A program made the translations under genes and the position numbers. 64,000 bases of DNA from Methylococcaceae bacterium (GTDB lineage: Bacteria; Pseudomonadota; Gammaproteobacteria; Methylococcales; Methylomonadaceae): contig JAUYBL010000007.1 of the NCBI GenBank assembly GCA_030693065.1, positions 80,710-144,709 on the forward strand, written 5' to 3'. The notes beneath the pieces are model-generated. The model did no database searches. It was not told the origin of the DNA and was given only the letters and a program-made list of their open reading frames with translations. Below are positions 2,687 to 24,456 of this stretch, piece after piece. Position 1 is the first letter of the stretch. Each line of letters begins with the position of its first letter.

Positions 2687-5600
2687 TTACTGCACCTTCA
2701 ACGACAAGCTACTGCTCAGTTCCTTGCTGTCTCGCGGCGGATCAATCACTGTATCAAGCGTAAACACCCGTTCATTAGCAATGCCGCCTTTTTGCACCAA
2801 ATATTTAGCAATGACTTGCGCTCGCTCCGATGCCAGATTTTTCAAGCGTTGCGGTTCCGGTGGAATCAATTCGGATAATTTTTGCTTGGCGACGGCATAA
2901 AAATCATCTTTCGATGGAATGAGTAATTTCGGGGTATCGCCGAATAGTGGTTTTTCGGCCAGATTCGGAAACTTTTCCATAAATTGCGCGATCATTAAAC
3001 GCCGATAATCTTCGTCACTTATCTCAACGTATTCCGGGCGGATTTTTCTGCCGCCTTCTTTAGCGATTTCCGCACTACGGATGTTTTTTAATTGATCATA
3101 CAAGGCATCATCCTGCATTGATGGCCAATCTTCTTGCTGAAATACCGCACCCTTGATTTCTACCGACAATTCCGGCTTTTCGGTTAAGGCTTTTGCCAAG
3201 CCGGATAGCTTGGTCTGTTGCTCGGGCTTGAGCTCTGCACTGCCGGATTCAAATGCAATCTGGCTAAGGTCGGCTTCAGACCCGACCAGTGATGCCAGTG
3301 CCCGAAAAGGGGAGGTGATTATCTTACTAATGCTATTCACCAAAGCGTCGAAGACCAAATGCGAGATGCTGAATTGAGGGTCTTCTAAGCTGCCGGTGAT
3401 CGGCACATCCAATTTAATTTTGCCGTCGCCATCTTTCATCAGGGCCACGGCCAGTTCCAACGGTAAGGATACGGCATCGGGATTGTCGACTTTTTCGCCC
3501 AACTCAAATTGATCAATCAATATGGAGTTGGATGCGGTCAACAGACCTTTGCTGACGTTATATTTCAGGCCCAGCGTTATTTTGCCTTTTTCAACTTTGT
3601 ACCCGGCAAATTGCACCATGTATGGCGAAATCAACGGCATGGGCATGCCGATAAAATTTAATTCGACATTGTAGTCACCCAAGTAAGGGCTAATCTCGCC
3701 TTTAACGTTAACGGGGGAAAGCTCGTAAGCATTACCTTTTAATTCGACCTTTACGATCGCATTTTTTTCTGACGAAAAATTTTGCGCGCCGCCGTCCAAG
3801 CTTTTAATGGGTGCGGCAAACGGCAAAATTAACGACAAATCGGCAAAATCAGAAGCGCCATCGACAATCTGTAGCGAATCCAATTTGAATGATGGTGGCT
3901 TTGTCGCTTGGCCGCTAGGTGCTTTCGTCGTTACTTTAGCGCTTTTAGGCGCCGGTTTATCTTCCAGCAATATATCCGAGAAATTACTGGTTTTATCTTT
4001 TCTAATCACTACCCGTGCATAAGGTTTGTTGATGAGCAATTTTTTGGCCTTATAGGTATTGCCCAGCACATCGACATCAACGTCTTGCAGGGTCAAGTTG
4101 TCCCATTTAACAAAATCTTTATTTTTAAGCTGATCTCGAGTCAGTAACTTGGCAATGCCGGTGTTGCCGGTAAAGTTGATCGCTAATTTGTCTTGTTGCT
4201 GCTTAAGCGCGAGCTTGCCGGTGACGCCAAACTGCCCGGAAATAATGTCTAGACGGGCAAATTTATCGACATACGGCTGAAATTTATCCAGCGCAATACC
4301 GTCAACGGCTAGCGCTGTCTGCAAGGCAAAGGGTTGTAAGGTCGTGTTGCCATCCAGCTTTATTAAGCCGCCATTATTAATACCGACACTGACTTGAAAA
4401 GGGATCGCCGTGCCGTCTTGATTGCTCACATTGCTCAGCTGCAAGTTAATCGGCTTGGCAGACATCGCGACCGGTTTTTTCAATGTTTTATCGGTAAAGT
4501 CCAAGCCAAAGTTATTTAATGCAATGCTGTTGACCTTGATGTTCCATGGCGACGATGCCGGTTCGGCGGCGGCTTGGGCATTGCCAGCTTGAGGCTGCGG
4601 TTCGCCCGAGCTGCCTGCAAATAACGCTTGATAGTTGATAACACCGTCGGCATTTAGCCAAGCTTGCGCATTGGCGCCGTTGGCGGTTAATGCATCAAGC
4701 AAAATATCGTGTTTTTTTAAATCCGCGCTTAGGCCAGTCAGCGCCAGTTTGGGGATTGTCACCAACGGTTTGTCGGCACCGGGTTCTGAAAACTGGAAGT
4801 CACGTAAGGCTAATTTGCCTTGTTCGACTCTAACATCGGGTTCACCCTCACCCAAGTTAATTTCAGCGTCAGCTTGCAGCGTAATGAACGGTGTTTTCAG
4901 CAAGATTTTGCCGGGTTGCTCCGCACTCACCTGCACATCGCGTAATTCAATATTGCTTTGCTTGATTAAAAGTTTCAGTTTTTTGTCAGCCTGGCTCAGT
5001 TGGTAATCAGCTTCAATCAATTCAGAGCCTTGAATATCAGCAGGCAAAGTTAAACCTGCCAACGCAATAACTCGCGCCAGCTTTACGCCGTCTAACTTAA
5101 GATGCCCCGCTGATTGCAAAGGCTGGAGCGCAAACGAGCCTTGCCATTCTAGGTTACCGCCAGAACTTAATGCTAAAGATAATGACAGTTTTGCGGAGTT
5201 TTCTGGCTGCGTGCTGAAATTTTCAAGATTGAAATTCAGCGGGATAACGTCTTCTTTTTGATTGGCATCTTCCCAGCTTAATTTGCCTTCGGCGATGGCC
5301 AGCTTGATGACGCTAACCGGGAAAGATTGGCTGTCACTCGGTTGTTGATCGGTGTCAGCTTTAACCAGATCGCTAAAGTTAAACTTACCGTCCGTTTGCC
5401 GGGCCAATCGAACAAACGGCTTTTGCAGCTGAATATCGTTAATCACCACCGCCGATTGTTTGATGGATTCGACGGCATCAAGGTCGACATAAAACTTGTC
5501 GAAGCTAACAAACGGCTGGCTGTTGCTCTCTTTAAGTTCAAAGCCTTGCAAACTGAATTGCAACTTAAAAGGATTGAACTGAATATCAGCAACTGCCGCG

Positions 5601-19949: not shown

Positions 19950-20065
19950 AAGCTAAGAGTTTGTTTTTATTAAGATGATTTCATCGATAAGACATCTCTT
20001 TGGTATCATAAGCAATGTGCGATAGCTGGTGTCATTGCATTTATAAAAATAATTGAGGAGTTAAC

Positions 20066-20803
20066 GTGAAAAAAATCAACAAATCACCTTTAGCGGCAGC
20101 AATGGGTGCTGCATTTATCTCAACCCTCGCTGCAAGCCCGGCCAATGCAGAAACCAATCCTTTTGGTTTAAGCGAATTATCTTCCGGTTACATGCAAGTC
20201 GCCGCGGCTGAAATGGCCTGCGGCGCTAACATGGACATGACAAAATCCAAAGCACCGGAAGGTGCTTGTGCAGGCAAGCCAACAAAAGCCGCGGATAAAC
20301 CCACAGCAGCAGCCGCAGCAAAACCTGCCGCCGAAGGCTCATGTGGCGAAGGCATGTGCGGCGCGATGATGCAAGGCGACAAAATGAAACCTGGTATGGA
20401 AGCTTCCTGCGGTGCCATGATGAAAGGTAAAGAAGGCGCTTGCGGAGCTACCGGCAAAGACGAAGCTAAAGCAACCCCAAGTGCAGCATCAGGCCACGAT
20501 GCTCATGCAGCAGAAAGCAAACCTACCGACAAACCAGCGGCTAAAACCACTGAAGGTTCATGCGGCGAAGGCATGTGCGGCGCGATGATGCAAGGCGACA
20601 AAATGAAGTCAGGCATGGAACACAGTTGCGGTGCGATGATGAAAGGTAAAGACGGTGCTTGCGGCGCTTCAGCGGGCACTAAGGACGATGGTCAAACCAA
20701 AATCAGCCCGGCTCAAGCAGCTGGCAAGACGGATGAACATCATGACAAATACGGTTTAGATAAATCATTAATCAAAGTCGTTCCATACGTTCCTAAAAAA
20801 TAA
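20066..20803 (+). CDS. bufA: Bufferin/HvfA-like RiPP precursor with two Cys/Met-rich repeats
   Basis: 245 residues from a GTG start with an AGGAG ribosome site 5 bases away. The signal peptide runs to about residue 28 (ASPANA), then NPFGLSELSSGYMQVA, the leader-type segment of EGKCG-motif precursors. Two 39-residue repeats (90-128 and 163-201) differ at three positions only. Each holds EGSCGEGMCGAMM, SCGAMMKGK and GACGA. There are ten Cys in all (52, 68, 93, 98, 115, 126, 166, 171, 188, 199) and many Met. The tail DKYGLDKSLIKVVPYVPKK has no Cys. MNIO enzymes convert EGxCG cysteines into copper-binding heterocycles in related systems. This precursor is longer than usual and has Ser/Met where Lys is typical. 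Role inferred: exported copper chelation. Confidence 0.85.
   Translation: MKKINKSPLAAAMGAAFISTLAASPANAETNPFGLSELSSGYMQVAAAEMACGANMDMTKSKAPEGACAGKPTKAADKPTAAAAAKPAAEGSCGEGMCGAMMQGDKMKPGMEASCGAMMKGKEGACGATGKDEAKATPSAASGHDAHAAESKPTDKPAAKTTEGSCGEGMCGAMMQGDKMKSGMEHSCGAMMKGKDGACGASAGTKDDGQTKISPAQAAGKTDEHHDKYGLDKSLIKVVPYVPKK
20333..20668 (+). repeat. Two 117-base direct repeats inside the RiPP precursor gene
   Basis: Codons 90-128 (20333-20449) and 163-201 (20552-20668) encode 36 identical residues out of 39, and the DNA is nearly identical too. They are separated by 102 bases of low-complexity coding sequence. This looks like a fairly recent internal duplication of the core region. Confidence 0.85.
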
Positions 20804-20831
20804 ACAGCAGAATCACTGCTTAGTTGTTTAA

Positions 20832-20854
20832 GAGGGCATGATGATCATGCCCTC
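20832..20854 (+). terminator. Hairpin between precursor and maturase genes, probable attenuator
   Basis: GAGGGCATGA/TCATGCCCTC forms a perfect 10-base-pair stem with a 3-base loop, 28 bases after the precursor stop and 28 before the MNIO start. It has no long T run, so partial termination or mRNA stabilisation is likelier than a full stop. This would give more precursor than enzyme, a common design in RiPP operons. Confidence 0.65.
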
Positions 20855-20881
20855 ACTTTCCAATCCAACACAGGTGTTCTT

Positions 20882-21733
20882 ATGGACACAACTCCCTTCC
20901 TAATTGACGGTGCCGGTTTAGGCCTTAGACGTTCTATTTTGGCGCAAGTGGTTGACGCACCGCCGCAAGAAGTCGGTTTTTACGAAGTTGCCCCGGAAAA
21001 CTGGATCACCATCGGCGGCAAATTAGGCAAACGCTTTCGCGCCATGACCGAGCGCTTCGATTTTATTTGTCACGGCTTATCTTTATCACTGGGCAGTACC
21101 GATCCACTGGACGTCAAACTGGTCCGTGATGTCAAAGCCTTTATGGCCGAGCATCAGATCAAGCTGTACAGCGAGCATTTAAGTTACTGCAGCAAGGATG
21201 GACATTTATATGACTTGATGCCGATTCCTTTTACTAGCGACGCAGTCAGCCATGTCGCCGCCCGCATCCGGCAAGTACAGGACATTCTGGAACAAAAAAT
21301 CGCCATCGAAAATGTCTCGTATTACGCGGCCCCAGGCCAGGAAATGGCGGAAATCGACTTTTTTAATGCCGTGGTCGAAGAAGCCGATTGCGATATTCTG
21401 ATCGACATCAACAACATTTACGTTAACAGCGTTAATCACGGCTACGATGCCGAAGCCTTTTTAAAAGCCATTCCCGCACATCGCATCGCTTACGCGCATA
21501 TCGCCGGGCACTATGTGGAAGCTGATGATTTTCTGGTCGATACCCACGGCGCCGCCATTATCGATCCGGTTTGGCGTTTGTTGGGCAAAGCTTATGAGCT
21601 TTACGGCGTGTTTCCGACGTTATTGGAACGGGATTTTAATATTCCCGAAATGGCCGAACTGCTGCGCGAAGTGAACACCATCAAAACTATACAGGCTGAC
21701 TGGGGTAAGCAACATGCCAAGCAATCAGCATGA
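20882..21733 (+). CDS. bufB: DUF692 / MNIO multinuclear iron oxidase, RiPP maturase
   Basis: 283 residues with the TIM-barrel DUF692 pattern. Conserved metal-site segments include CHGLSLSLG, YSEHLSYC, IENVSYY, DINNIYVNSVNHGYD, AHIAGHY, DTHGAAIIDPVW and LLERDFNIP. MNIO enzymes (MbnB, HvfB, BufB, TglH) use two or three irons to oxidise Cys side chains of a precursor peptide. The adjacent Cys-rich precursor and DUF2063 partner, overlapping by 20 bases, identify the system. Cytoplasmic; acts before export. Confidence 0.92.
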   Translation: MDTTPFLIDGAGLGLRRSILAQVVDAPPQEVGFYEVAPENWITIGGKLGKRFRAMTERFDFICHGLSLSLGSTDPLDVKLVRDVKAFMAEHQIKLYSEHLSYCSKDGHLYDLMPIPFTSDAVSHVAARIRQVQDILEQKIAIENVSYYAAPGQEMAEIDFFNAVVEEADCDILIDINNIYVNSVNHGYDAEAFLKAIPAHRIAYAHIAGHYVEADDFLVDTHGAAIIDPVWRLLGKAYELYGVFPTLLERDFNIPEMAELLREVNTIKTIQADWGKQHAKQSA

Positions 21734-22493
21734 AACCGGCATTGACTTTAAAGCCAAGCAGCAAGAGTTTGCCGCTTATATAAGAAATCCCCATAGAAAT
21801 CCTGCACCTGCCGATGTGCCGCCGGAACGCATGGCAATGTACCGGCAGCTGTTTTATAACAACATCGACAGCTTTCTTGCCGCTAACTTCCCTGTACTCA
21901 GAAAACTGCTCAGCAACGAAAAATGGACCGAATTAGCCGAAGATTTTTTTGCCAAACACACCAATCAATCGCCTTATTTTTCAGAAATCCCCGAAGAATT
22001 TTTGGCTTATTTGGAAAACGAACGCCAACACCCGGACGATTTCCCGTTCATGCTGGAATTGGCGCATTACGAATGGGTGGAAATGGCCTTATCGATAGCC
22101 AAAGACGAAGTGACACCGGCCCCAATCCCTGACAACCTGCTGCAGGCAAACATCAAACTGTCGCCGCTAGCCTGGTCACTTGCCTATCAATACCCGGTGC
22201 ATAAAATAGCGCCCGATTTTTTGCCGAAACAACCCCCAGCCCAGCCGACCTTTTTGGTGGTGTATCGCGACCCTGACGATGACGTTAATTTTATTGAAAT
22301 CACCCCGATGACCTACCGCCTGCTGGAAATCATCGAGCAAAACGAGGGTGTACAAACAGCAACAGCCCTACAGCAAATCGCCGAACAGCTGCAACACCCT
22401 AATCCGCAATTAGTCCTCAACGCGGGCTTGCAAATATTGCAAGAATTGGCCGAAAAAACCGTCATCATTCCGAGCAATTCACTGCTTGATTGA
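21714..22493 (+). CDS. bufC: DUF2063 partner protein of the MNIO enzyme (HvfC/BufC)
   Basis: 259 residues. The N-terminal DUF2063 domain (QQEFAAYIRNPHRNP ... MAMYRQLFYNNIDSFLAANFPVLRKL) is followed by a C-terminal beta-rich part (FLVVYRDPDDDVNFIEITPM) with RRE-like character that recruits the precursor leader. The start lies inside the MNIO gene, so the two are translationally coupled. No DoxX-type bufD gene follows; a MITE-like element comes next. Confidence 0.9.
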   Translation: MPSNQHETGIDFKAKQQEFAAYIRNPHRNPAPADVPPERMAMYRQLFYNNIDSFLAANFPVLRKLLSNEKWTELAEDFFAKHTNQSPYFSEIPEEFLAYLENERQHPDDFPFMLELAHYEWVEMALSIAKDEVTPAPIPDNLLQANIKLSPLAWSLAYQYPVHKIAPDFLPKQPPAQPTFLVVYRDPDDDVNFIEITPMTYRLLEIIEQNEGVQTATALQQIAEQLQHPNPQLVLNAGLQILQELAEKTVIIPSNSLLD

Positions 22494-22499
22494 ATGTAA

Positions 22500-22607
22500 T
22501 ACCAATCCCAATAAGTTCACATGCTATCCCTTCTCCAACGTACCCATAGGGCATAAAGGAGAAGGTAAGGATGAGGGTTTCAAAATAAAAACTTATTGGG
22601 ATTGGTA
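22500..22607. mobile_element. MITE-like element with 18-base inverted ends
   Basis: A 108-base segment bounded by TACCAATCCCAATAAGTT (22500-22517) and its exact complement (22590-22607). The inside has no coding capacity. A TA lies next to both ends and could be a target duplication. It sits between the RiPP operon and the ABC transporter genes and may separate their transcription. Confidence 0.65.
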
Positions 22608-22720
22608 TAAGATGCCATCACTGGAAACCAGTCAAATAGCGGCTCATGTAAAATGTTTTACAGCTTCTATGCGCAAACAAACCTTGAGTAAAATCAATCC
22701 ACTACGGACAAAGTAGAACA

Positions 22721-23542
22721 ATGCATCCCAGTTTTTTTAATCAACTCTTGCTCATCAGTCAGTTTGAGCTCAAAAGGGGCTTTGCAACCCGTAAAGGCTT
22801 GTTGTCCATCGTGACCTTTGGCGTCGTTTGGTATTTTATTCTGCTGTATCCACTTCGATTTACCGCTGACGTATTGGTGGAAGACAACGGCTCAAACCAG
22901 CACTTTAGCTTTTTTGACTTTATCGGTTTTGGCTCATTACAGCATTGGCCCATCCCTGAGTTCGGGGTGTTTTGGCATATTGCTTTGATCATCTTCCCAA
23001 TATTGAGCGTTACCCTGGCAGCCGATCAAACGTGTTCGGATCGCGAACGCGGTACCTTGCGATTTATCCTATTGCGCAGCAGTCGCAACCGTCTGTTCTT
23101 TGGTCGGTTTATCGGCGTGATGATCATTCAGACACTATTGATCTGTGCTGCCGCGCTAAGCACCCTGATTCTAGTGCTGACTCGTGATGCTTCACTCTTT
23201 ACTTCAGCATTACCAAATCTACTGGTCATAACGCTAAATTTAATAGTGGCCGTTTTGCCCTTTACAGCCATGATGGCGGCTTTATCCGCTACGGTTAAAT
23301 CTGCACGGCAAGCCACCCTCTGGGCCATTCTGATCTGGACCTTTCTCGCCGGTATCATCAGCGGGGTTGCTTACTATCTGCCTGCGCTTAGTTTTTTTAG
23401 ATTACTTATTCCCGGTGTACAACTGGCTGAGCTGACGCAACTGTCAGGATGGCAAACATTGCAATTAGCGTATATTCCACTCTTGCAAAGCTTTATTTTG
23501 TTAGCCGTGGGGCGCTGGATAATGGCAAGGCAAGCACTATGA
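22721..23542 (+). CDS. ABC-2 type permease, NosY-like
   Basis: 273 residues with about six membrane helices. The segment DQTCSDRERGTLRFILLRSSRNRLFFGRF after the second helix is characteristic of NosY/ABC-2 permeases. It is coupled to the ATPase gene by an ATGA overlap. NosFY transporters supply a sulphur species for copper-centre assembly or serve other export roles. The location downstream of a copper-type RiPP cluster is suggestive only; the substrate is unknown. Confidence 0.75.
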   Translation: MHPSFFNQLLLISQFELKRGFATRKGLLSIVTFGVVWYFILLYPLRFTADVLVEDNGSNQHFSFFDFIGFGSLQHWPIPEFGVFWHIALIIFPILSVTLAADQTCSDRERGTLRFILLRSSRNRLFFGRFIGVMIIQTLLICAAALSTLILVLTRDASLFTSALPNLLVITLNLIVAVLPFTAMMAALSATVKSARQATLWAILIWTFLAGIISGVAYYLPALSFFRLLIPGVQLAELTQLSGWQTLQLAYIPLLQSFILLAVGRWIMARQAL

Positions 23543-24456
23543 GTTCACCAATTATTCAATGTAAACAGCTTAATCACGTTTACTCGGGCAACCTCGCGCT
23601 TAACAATGTCAATTTTGAATTGGCCGCGGGTGAACCGATTGGCTTGGTCGGCCCCAATGGCGCCGGCAAAACCACTTTGCTCGGTATTTTGTCGGGTTTT
23701 TTGCAGCCCACATCTGGCACCGTCAGCTTATTCGATCACCCGCCTGGCGCGAAGCAACTCATCGGCAAAGTCTCTGCACTCCCGCAAGACGCAAGACTTG
23801 ATCCAAGCTTTACTATTACTGAGCAACTGGTTTTTTATGGCCGTTTACAGGGGCTGACTAACCCACAGGCTATTTTGGAAGCGAGCAGAGTTTTAGAGGC
23901 TGTTTCATTAACAGAAATCAGCCATGAAAAACCCGGCACACTGAGTCACGGCATGGCTAAACGAGTGGCGATTGCCCAAGCACTGATCGGTAAACCGGCA
24001 CTGATATTACTGGATGAACCTACTGCGGGGCTTGATCCTATCAATGTCAGAACAGTGCGGACCATCATCGCCGAGCAATCATCAGCAACCACCTTTATTA
24101 TTAGCTCCCACGATTTAGCTGAACTTGATCGTCTGTGTCAGCGAATTTTACTGCTGGAAAAAGGTATATTGCAGTCAGAAATACTTGGCCAAAACGAACA
24201 ACAGGCGGCCACCCGTTTTATTACCTTACAAATGGAAAACGCCCCAGCCGGTGAAGTGATTACTAAATTCAAGACGATAACTGGCGTCCTGCAGGTGACT
24301 AACCCGCAAAAAAATGAATTTATCGTGGAATATAACCCTGCTTTACAAGCCCAAATGGATCTGCAACTGATACAGTGCATCAACATGAGTCACTGGCAAT
24401 ATCGGCAATTGAGCCATGGCAAGAGCTTGGAAGAAAAGCTGTTTTTTAGCGACTAA
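23539..24456 (+). CDS. ABC transporter ATPase, NosF/CcmA-like
   Basis: 305 residues from the ATG at 23539 (MSSPIIQCKQLNHVYSG). Walker A is GPNGAGKTT (near residue 37), signature LSHGMAKR, Walker B LILLDEPTAGLDP, and the H-loop lies in SSHDLAELD. The 80-residue C-terminal extension is typical of ABC-2 drug/copper-type ATPases. It pairs with the permease it overlaps. A longer frame from 23449 lies inside the permease gene and is not used. Confidence 0.88.
   Translation: MSSPIIQCKQLNHVYSGNLALNNVNFELAAGEPIGLVGPNGAGKTTLLGILSGFLQPTSGTVSLFDHPPGAKQLIGKVSALPQDARLDPSFTITEQLVFYGRLQGLTNPQAILEASRVLEAVSLTEISHEKPGTLSHGMAKRVAIAQALIGKPALILLDEPTAGLDPINVRTVRTIIAEQSSATTFIISSHDLAELDRLCQRILLLEKGILQSEILGQNEQQAATRFITLQMENAPAGEVITKFKTITGVLQVTNPQKNEFIVEYNPALQAQMDLQLIQCINMSHWQYRQLSHGKSLEEKLFFSD

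Follow-up and report, generated by a model that had tools for sequence, protein, structure and literature searches.

Organization of the locus

The window, that is, the whole analysed stretch of 64,000 nucleotides, contains three genes on the + strand, which ORF calling placed in the order precursor (20066-20803), MNIO (20882-21733) and DUF2063 gene (21714-22493), the last of which overlaps the MNIO gene by 20 bases. A GTG-started, signal-bearing precursor rich in Cys and Met, followed by an MNIO gene and an overlapping DUF2063 gene, had been predicted from the sequence, and the coordinates and profile matches bore this out. The following features were recorded:

19999..20012, + strand: probable promoter, extended -10 element TTTGGTATCATAAG, 54 bases upstream of the GTG start
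20054..20060, + strand: ribosome-binding site TGAGGAG (GAGG-type), from the sequence
20066..20803, + strand: precursor, HvfA-like, Met-rich, 245 aa, signal peptide/leader followed by a 10-Cys core (leader profile, dN/dS)
20333..20443, + strand: first 37-aa Cys/Met cassette, aa 90-126 (repeat comparison)
20552..20662, + strand: second 37-aa Cys/Met cassette, aa 163-199 (34/37 identical to the first)
20832..20854, + strand: hairpin between the precursor and MNIO genes, 10-bp perfect stem, 3-base loop (stem counts versus shuffles)
20882..21733, + strand: HvfB-family MNIO (DUF692, PF05114), 283 aa (Pfam, NCBIfam, solved relative)
21714..22493, + strand: HvfC-family partner (DUF2063 + NGO1945_C), 259 aa (Pfam, NCBIfam, solved relative)

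The core duplication, the hairpin between the first and second genes, and the observation that such a core is common in relatives go beyond the original prediction.

The MNIO protein scored 351.6 bits against the Pfam profile PF05114 and 440.5 bits against the NCBIfam HvfB family NF003818, which has a curated cut-off of 360, and the DUF2063 protein scored 322.4 bits against the HvfC family NF050145, with a curated cut-off of 142. Solved relatives were identified for both, 3bww for the MNIO (E 1.5e-71) and 3dee for the DUF2063 protein (E 6.6e-14).

The locus was compared with the best 80 of 297 confirmed loci, here called the related loci. Among these best 80 of 297, an nth gene was located upstream in 66 and a DUF2063 gene downstream in 79, the single exception (L070) being a locus that ends before the DUF2063 gene is reached. 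An ABC permease/ATPase pair at 22721-24456 was rejected as a part of the cluster, since no match to it was obtained at any of the best 80 of 297 loci, with 3.5 kb or more of downstream sequence available at 53 of them. DoxX genes are frequent, although not obligatory, in HvfABC/EGKCG captophorin clusters. No DoxX gene was found at the best 80 of 297 loci with one Buf1 DoxX protein as the query, which is a weak test, and the single PF07681 match in this genome was located within a Buf1 cluster on contig 16, with none at the precursor locus.

The precursor leader and its coding status

The precursor opens with a Sec-type signal, as judged by eye. Its leader scored 71.5 bits against a profile of canonical EGKCG leaders, compared with 12.3 bits for the best of 770 shuffled leaders; the profile was built from 28 of 29 class precursors, a set that is biased to EGKCG because it was found with the EGKCG model. 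In a second profile, made from the signal part of 67 sequences with some genomes represented twice, the precursor ranked at the top of the 209 ORFs in the window, with 34.1 versus 4.6 bits. The match to the HvfA leader matters because, according to a paper that cites bufferin for the same behavior, the Sec signal serves HvfBC much as a recognition leader would (PMC13419390).

The GTG start was common to the precursor and 3 close relatives (L005, L006 and L014), and the dN/dS values against these were 0.08, 0.09 and 0.18, which at the level of sequence comparison indicates that the precursor is a real coding gene. Its score against the HvfA repeat model NF050137 was 16.7 bits in the protein search and 18.5 bits in the genome search, just below the cut-off of 19.5, and it scored 15.7 bits against NF050188, below the cut-off of 95. 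No Pfam match was obtained in the precursor at E 0.01, there was no convincing solved relative (best E 0.64), and AlphaFold found no fold for it (mean pLDDT 51.3, pTM 0.19), as would be expected of a flexible metal-binding peptide. A β-helix with inward-pointing Cys has been published for one EGKCG protein; the AlphaFold model of the precursor gives no support for it.

A shift from Cys to Met partners in the core

The precursor contains 10 Cys residues and, if cleavage after residue 28 is assumed, 18 Met residues in its mature part. The two cassettes of 37 amino acids in the core, at positions 90-126 and 163-199, were identical at 34 sites, and the longest exact repeat in the protein was 19 amino acids long, versus at most 7 in 500 shuffles. 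None of the 10 Cys is preceded by Lys, in agreement with the prediction that EGKCG had been replaced, and the residue that follows Cys is Gly in 9 cases and Ala in 1. A second Cys at spacing 5 was present for 4 of the 10 Cys, a Met at positions +3 to +5 for 7, and neither for 3.

To describe the core in other genomes, we used precursors from 75 of the best 80 of 297 loci, referred to as the related precursors, which are mutually non-independent and do not represent a family count. Three loci were left out since they start too close to the MNIO gene (L008, L016 and L081) and another since it is cut by a contig end (L029), while at the fifth (L024) the leader-bearing ORF had fewer Cys than the filter required. 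As controls, 60 loci were hand-picked down the score-ranked HvfB loci of the class, with Methylococcales skipped, and thus represent the better-scoring loci rather than a random sample. An HvfA-like ORF was found within 1.5 kb in 44 of these, and the 40 with a strict leader pattern were used for the spacing of Met and Cys.

A Met at Cys+3 to Cys+5 was found for 464 of the 673 core Cys (69%) in the related precursors, whereas this was the case for only 55 of 300 Cys (18%) in the 40 controls. Conversely, Cys pairs at spacing 5 accounted for 103 of 673 Cys (15%) in the related precursors and for 232 of 300 (77%) in the controls. The Met residues were placed at Cys+3 in 42%, at Cys+4 in 61% and at Cys+5 in 0.1% of the cases in the related precursors, which had a mean Met content of 11.6%, compared with 3% at Cys+3 and 14% at Cys+4 in the strict controls. 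Lys preceded 131 of 673 Cys (19%) in the 75 related precursors and 295 of 319 Cys (92%) in the 44 class controls, the motif C[GA].MM was present in 73 of 75 versus 1 of 44, and the median Met content of the core was 12.0% versus 3.8%, with 8.9% for the precursor in the window. The shift of partner from Cys to Met thus marks the lineage, and the second Cys has mostly been replaced by Met. As many as 166 of the 673 Cys in the related precursors lacked both kinds of partner, the Cys at spacing 5 and the Met at +3 to +5, so that the idea of a Met partner leaves some sites uncovered, including the 3 mentioned above.

In an alignment of 41 precursors, Met101 was invariant, and Met102, Met107, Met118 and Met119 were conserved in at least 90% of the sequences, as were Cys52, Cys68, Cys98, Cys115 and Cys126. 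The precursor had been described as atypical, but with C[GA].MM in nearly all related precursors it represents a lineage-wide form of the core rather than an oddity of one gene. Likewise, the cysteines in GAMM and GACGA contexts, which had been taken for extras, turned out to form a conserved cassette together with the methionines. The number of core Cys ranged from 5 to 17, and Lys-Cys was missing from the core in 25 of the 75 related precursors. This trait corresponds to 7 changes on an MNIO tree that is weakly supported, the well-supported branches of which force only one. Met-rich and EGSCG-bearing precursors also turn up sporadically elsewhere in the class, so neither Met-richness nor EGSCG is unique by itself.

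Conservation of the MNIO enzyme

The MNIO protein contains Arg-Arg at positions 16-17 and Asp-Phe at positions 251-252, which were matched by motif to the residues proposed as substrate contacts in FonB, namely 2 adjacent Arg and the Phe that follows the catalytic Asp (PMC13097082). Among the MNIOs of the best 80 of 297 loci, both motifs were found in 79; L006 reads SR in place of RR, and L024, which has kept the leader and lost core Cys of its precursor, reads DY in place of DF. Because of this conservation, the enzyme looks unchanged while its substrate has moved. We know of no modification of Cys in a Ser-Cys or Met-Cys context. FonBC was reported to take Ala, Arg and Thr before Cys, to process Phe and Glu poorly and to refuse Pro, and in double variants Ala was the only substitute for the Gly after Cys; Ser and Met are not named among the preceding residues tried in the available part of that paper (PMC13097082).

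Putative expression signals

A perfect stem of at least 8 bp was identified between the precursor and MNIO genes at 49 of 71 loci, whereas a single shuffle of each region left such a stem in 1 of 71. The stem sequences vary between lineages, and the hairpin, which has no long T tract, was absent from the listing of the terminator scan. Our own interpretation is that it may cause partial termination or protect the precursor transcript. An element resembling the extended -10 was found in 49 of 72 upstream regions, that of the window included, when at least 11 of 14 positions were required to match and two letters were allowed at variable positions; this is a raw count without a shuffled control. 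The element was missed by a consensus promoter scan because the -35 element is weak. No copper-sensor operator was recognized upstream of the precursor.

Relationship to known systems

Captophorins are copper metallophores based on thiooxazoles. The cluster almost certainly is of the HvfABC type, as seen from the HvfB and HvfC scores above the cut-offs, the HvfA leader and a core that falls just short of the repeat model, and for these reasons we regard it as a variant of the HvfABC/EGKCG captophorins rather than as Buf1 or Buf2. It is called a variant and not a plain member since the EGKCG repeat was searched for and is absent. The original prediction of a bufferin/HvfABC-like cluster accordingly holds for its HvfABC part and fails for bufferins 1 and 2 in the strict sense; the Buf1 cluster of this genome is a separate one, located on another contig. 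The precursor had no Pfam match, DUF2282 of Buf1 included, and the MNIO scored 264.4 bits against the BufB model (cut-off 310) and 51.1 bits against the MbnB-type model TIGR04159 (cut-off 325). With its HvfA leader and its ten Cys in Cys-Gly contexts, the precursor probably also differs from that of Buf2 (Buf_6/12Cys).

A close parallel is HvfABC, which makes oxazolin in Haemophilus influenzae and shares the order precursor-MNIO-DUF2063, the enzyme families, the Sec leader and the Gly after Cys; however, HvfA carries three AEGKCGEGKCG motifs with six modified Cys, whereas the precursor studied here has 245 amino acids, ten Cys, many Met and no Lys-Cys, and hvf includes a DoxX-like gene, hvfX, which was not found here (PMC13419390). 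The fontiphorin cluster FonABC is likewise a minimal three-gene cluster without DoxX and with Arg-Arg and Asp-Phe in the MNIO, but its EGKCG repeats contain paired Cys, whereas most Cys here have a nearby Met (PMC13097082). The bulbicupramide cluster mmrABC of Microbulbifer also consists of three genes present throughout a lineage, with a conserved leader and a variable core, but its cassettes are canonical EGKCG, and Met-richness goes unmentioned in the available part of that paper (PMC12538549). Bufferin 1 (DUF2282) resembles the cluster in its MNIO and DUF2063 proteins, exported precursor and proposed role in copper handling, and differs in the precursor family (PMC12452194). Methanobactin (MbnABC), which is known from methanotrophs, is also a copper RiPP made by an MNIO, as predicted here, whereas the present cluster has a partner of the DUF2063 type and a long, signal-bearing precursor.

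Distribution and methane oxidation

In a sample of the family, a relative of the MNIO was present in 145 of 151 genomes, and in 125 of the 128 good ones, with the protein as the query at E<=1e-60, a threshold that one genome (G045) passed only at 9.6e-61. The HvfB model matched 122 of 369 class genomes at E<=1e-90, 117 of them above the cut-off, and because of the different queries and thresholds the family and class rates are not strictly comparable. The cut-off of NF050137 was passed somewhere in 66 of 101 genomes of the order, and 38 of 40 loci in the order sample gave a precursor. The named loci among the best 80 of 297 include Methylobacter, Methylovulum, Methyloglobulus and Crenothrix. 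The closest loci were named Methylobacter and Methylococcaceae, and this genome contains a pmoA-family gene, which supports the predicted copper-demanding host as a likely methanotroph.

All 33 genomes of the own family in the order sample contained both a pmoA-family gene and HvfB. In family f186, however, 7 of the 10 genomes contained a pmoA-family gene and none contained HvfB, so particulate methane monooxygenase does not require the cluster. Precursors were obtained from 29 of 31 loci in family f2; most of these had few Cys and were Met-rich, with C[GA]..?MM in 24 of the 29, and Lys preceded 74 of their 104 Cys. In family f3, where many genomes have a lower-scoring pmoA-family gene, the precursors were canonical and Met-poor at all 4 loci read. 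Met-richness may possibly be linked with methane oxidation, but its distribution is confounded with descent.

The genome also contains a second cluster of the Buf1 type (DUF2282, MNIO, DUF2063 and DoxX) on contig 16, and 2 further MNIO genes that are cut off by the ends of contigs 11 and 23 and are each accompanied by a small precursor containing ACKG motifs. With the HvfABC, Buf1 and ACKG types present, this cell has at least 3 kinds of MNIO cluster.

Proposed function and alternative explanations

Based on the gene identities, the HvfA leader, the conservation of Cys and Met, the partner shift and the hairpin, we interpret the locus, with a probability of roughly 70%, as an HvfABC/EGKCG captophorin cluster in a lineage-specific, Met-rich form, predicted to encode a peptide that buffers Cu(I) in the periplasm through mixed thiooxazole/Met sites. 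In the proposed scheme, the hairpin after the precursor gene would cause more precursor than enzyme to be made, which is our own suggestion. The HvfC-like protein would bind the precursor through its signal peptide/leader, the iron enzyme HvfB would turn several of the 10 Cys, or all of them, into 5-thiooxazoles by oxidation, each modified Cys becoming about 4 Da lighter, and the product would be exported by Sec and its signal removed. These steps and copper binding are drawn from characterized relatives (PMC13097082, PMC13419390, PMC12538549, PMC12452194). Each thiooxazole thiolate would hold Cu(I) together with the Met thioethers 3 to 5 residues further on, the role of Met being our own addition, and the product would be an unfolded periplasmic copper buffer with many sites. 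These sites may be rather exchangeable, because the second thiooxazole of the usual pair has mostly been replaced by Met. We hold it very probable that several Cys carry thiooxazoles and, with the same assurance, that the product binds Cu(I), while the chance that Met residues serve as copper ligands is put at about even. Against this interpretation stand the missing DoxX gene, the failure to recognize a copper-sensor site upstream and the Cys that have neither kind of partner.

The product could instead be a donor or store that keeps periplasmic Cu(I) for particulate methane monooxygenase, with Met easing the hand-over, rather than a buffer against stress. The presence of an MNIO relative in 145 of 151 family genomes, the co-occurrence of pmoA-family genes and HvfB in every one of the 33 order-sample genomes that belong to the own family, and the contrast between the Met-rich precursors of f2 and the Met-poor ones of f3 (4/4 read) are in line with such a role. 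We nevertheless consider it unlikely, given that 7 of 10 f186 genomes have a pmoA-family gene and none has HvfB, that distribution and descent are confounded, and that relatives have been reported to be induced by, or to protect against, excess copper (PMC12452194, PMC13097082). On the other hand, no expression of the similar Microbulbifer cluster was detected whether or not copper was added, and the authors of that study are reluctant to assign it a protective role (PMC12538549), which cautions against assuming detoxification.

It is more doubtful still that the core has drifted, such that several Cys are no longer modified and the product, if functional, is a plain Cys/Met metal-binding peptide. 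The loss of Lys before all 10 Cys, the range of 5 to 17 core Cys, and L024, with its retained leader, lost core Cys and altered DF motif, would fit with drift, but the dN/dS values of 0.08-0.18, the conservation of both Cys and Met positions in the cassette and the specificity residues kept in 79 of the MNIOs at the best 80 of 297 loci speak against it. Met-rich periplasmic proteins can act as oxidant sinks, and a Met-rich trap for hypochlorite or other oxidants, or a peptide that buffers a soft metal other than copper, would be compatible with this general property, with a captophorin paper that ties clusters of this kind to metals and also to oxidative stress (PMC13097082) and with the gold induction reported for bufferin operons (PMC12452194). 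However, the characterized relatives bind copper, and Met is in register with Cys, at +3 and +4 and hardly ever at +5, which is more than a sink would need, making this the least probable of the explanations and a very improbable one. The Met-rich captophorin thus remains our preferred interpretation.

Implications for copper handling in methanotrophs

As far as seen in the available parts of two landscape papers, which describe EGKCG repeats and EF-hand fusions, the Met-rich form of the core appears to be new. We found no description of Met-rich or methanotroph EGKCG clusters in the literature, where supplementary motif tables may hold them; DUF or UPF0276 was not matched in the text of a copper transcriptome study of Methylococcus capsulatus (PMC4831470), nor DUF692 or bufferin in a survey of methanotroph metabolites (PMC11964084). 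Clusters of DUF692 and DUF2063 genes with six Cys have been reported in a putatively methanotrophic order (PMC8692599). The cluster provides natural Ser-Cys, Met-Cys and Ala-Cys candidate substrates for learning about the tolerance of thiooxazole-forming MNIOs, and a Met in place of the second Cys could alter the binding of copper or its onward transfer.

A survey from 2013 did not turn up a methanobactin operon in either of two species, Methylococcus capsulatus Bath and Methylomicrobium album BG8 (PMC3621798). The cluster is a near-universal candidate for extracytosolic copper handling in a gammaproteobacterial methanotroph family without methanobactin. We put forward, as a speculation that is probably wrong, that methanotrophic Methylococcales have remodelled the EGKCG thiooxazole pairs into thiooxazole-Met sites, yielding a near-universal periplasmic Cu(I) exchange peptide that either supplies particulate methane monooxygenase or protects it in the absence of methanobactin.

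Partial MNIO clusters elsewhere in the genome

Loci at contig ends were identified on three other contigs of the same genome:
Locus L003, contig C23, 1-819: MNIO gene and small ACKG-type precursor, at the contig end
Locus L004, contig C11, 1-821: MNIO gene and small ACKG-type precursor, at the contig end
Locus L241, contig C16, 14991-16753: third DUF2063 gene and radical SAM/DUF3641 gene, at the contig end

The MNIO genes of L003 and L004 resembled each other, their small precursors were near-identical, and both clusters were truncated by the contig end at the same base, which suggests that they represent a duplicated cluster at which the assembly broke. The DUF2063 gene in L241, which adjoins the radical SAM/DUF3641 gene, may be part of one of these two broken clusters.

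Downstream flank of the cluster

Two features were located 3' of the HvfABC-type cluster in the window:
22497-22612: element of about 116 bases with 21-base inverted ends, directly 3' of the DUF2063 gene
22721-24456: gene pair for an ABC-2 permease and an ABC ATPase, immediately downstream of the cluster

The element looks like a member of a MITE-type repeat family, since it had 62 matches within its own genome, of which 42 were longer than the short terminal arms, although some represent fragments of the same copy. The ABC gene pair had no match in any of the 80 related loci (the best 80 of 297), and we therefore rejected it as a cluster member and consider it a local neighbor.

Absence and possible loss in related bacteria

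Within family f186 of the Methylococcales, sampled by genomes G521, G526, G531, G534, G537, G540, G543, G546, G549, and G552, a pmoA-family gene was present in 7 genomes and HvfB in none of the 10. These bacteria are likely methane oxidizers that lack an HvfABC-type cluster. In the related locus L024, the precursor upstream of the MNIO gene at 5001 had retained an intact leader, with a core reduced to 2 cysteines and the remaining cysteine positions either replaced by serine or missing. The MNIO protein beside this cysteine-poor precursor contained DY in place of DF, and judging from these sequences, L024 is a possible case of natural loss of the modification.
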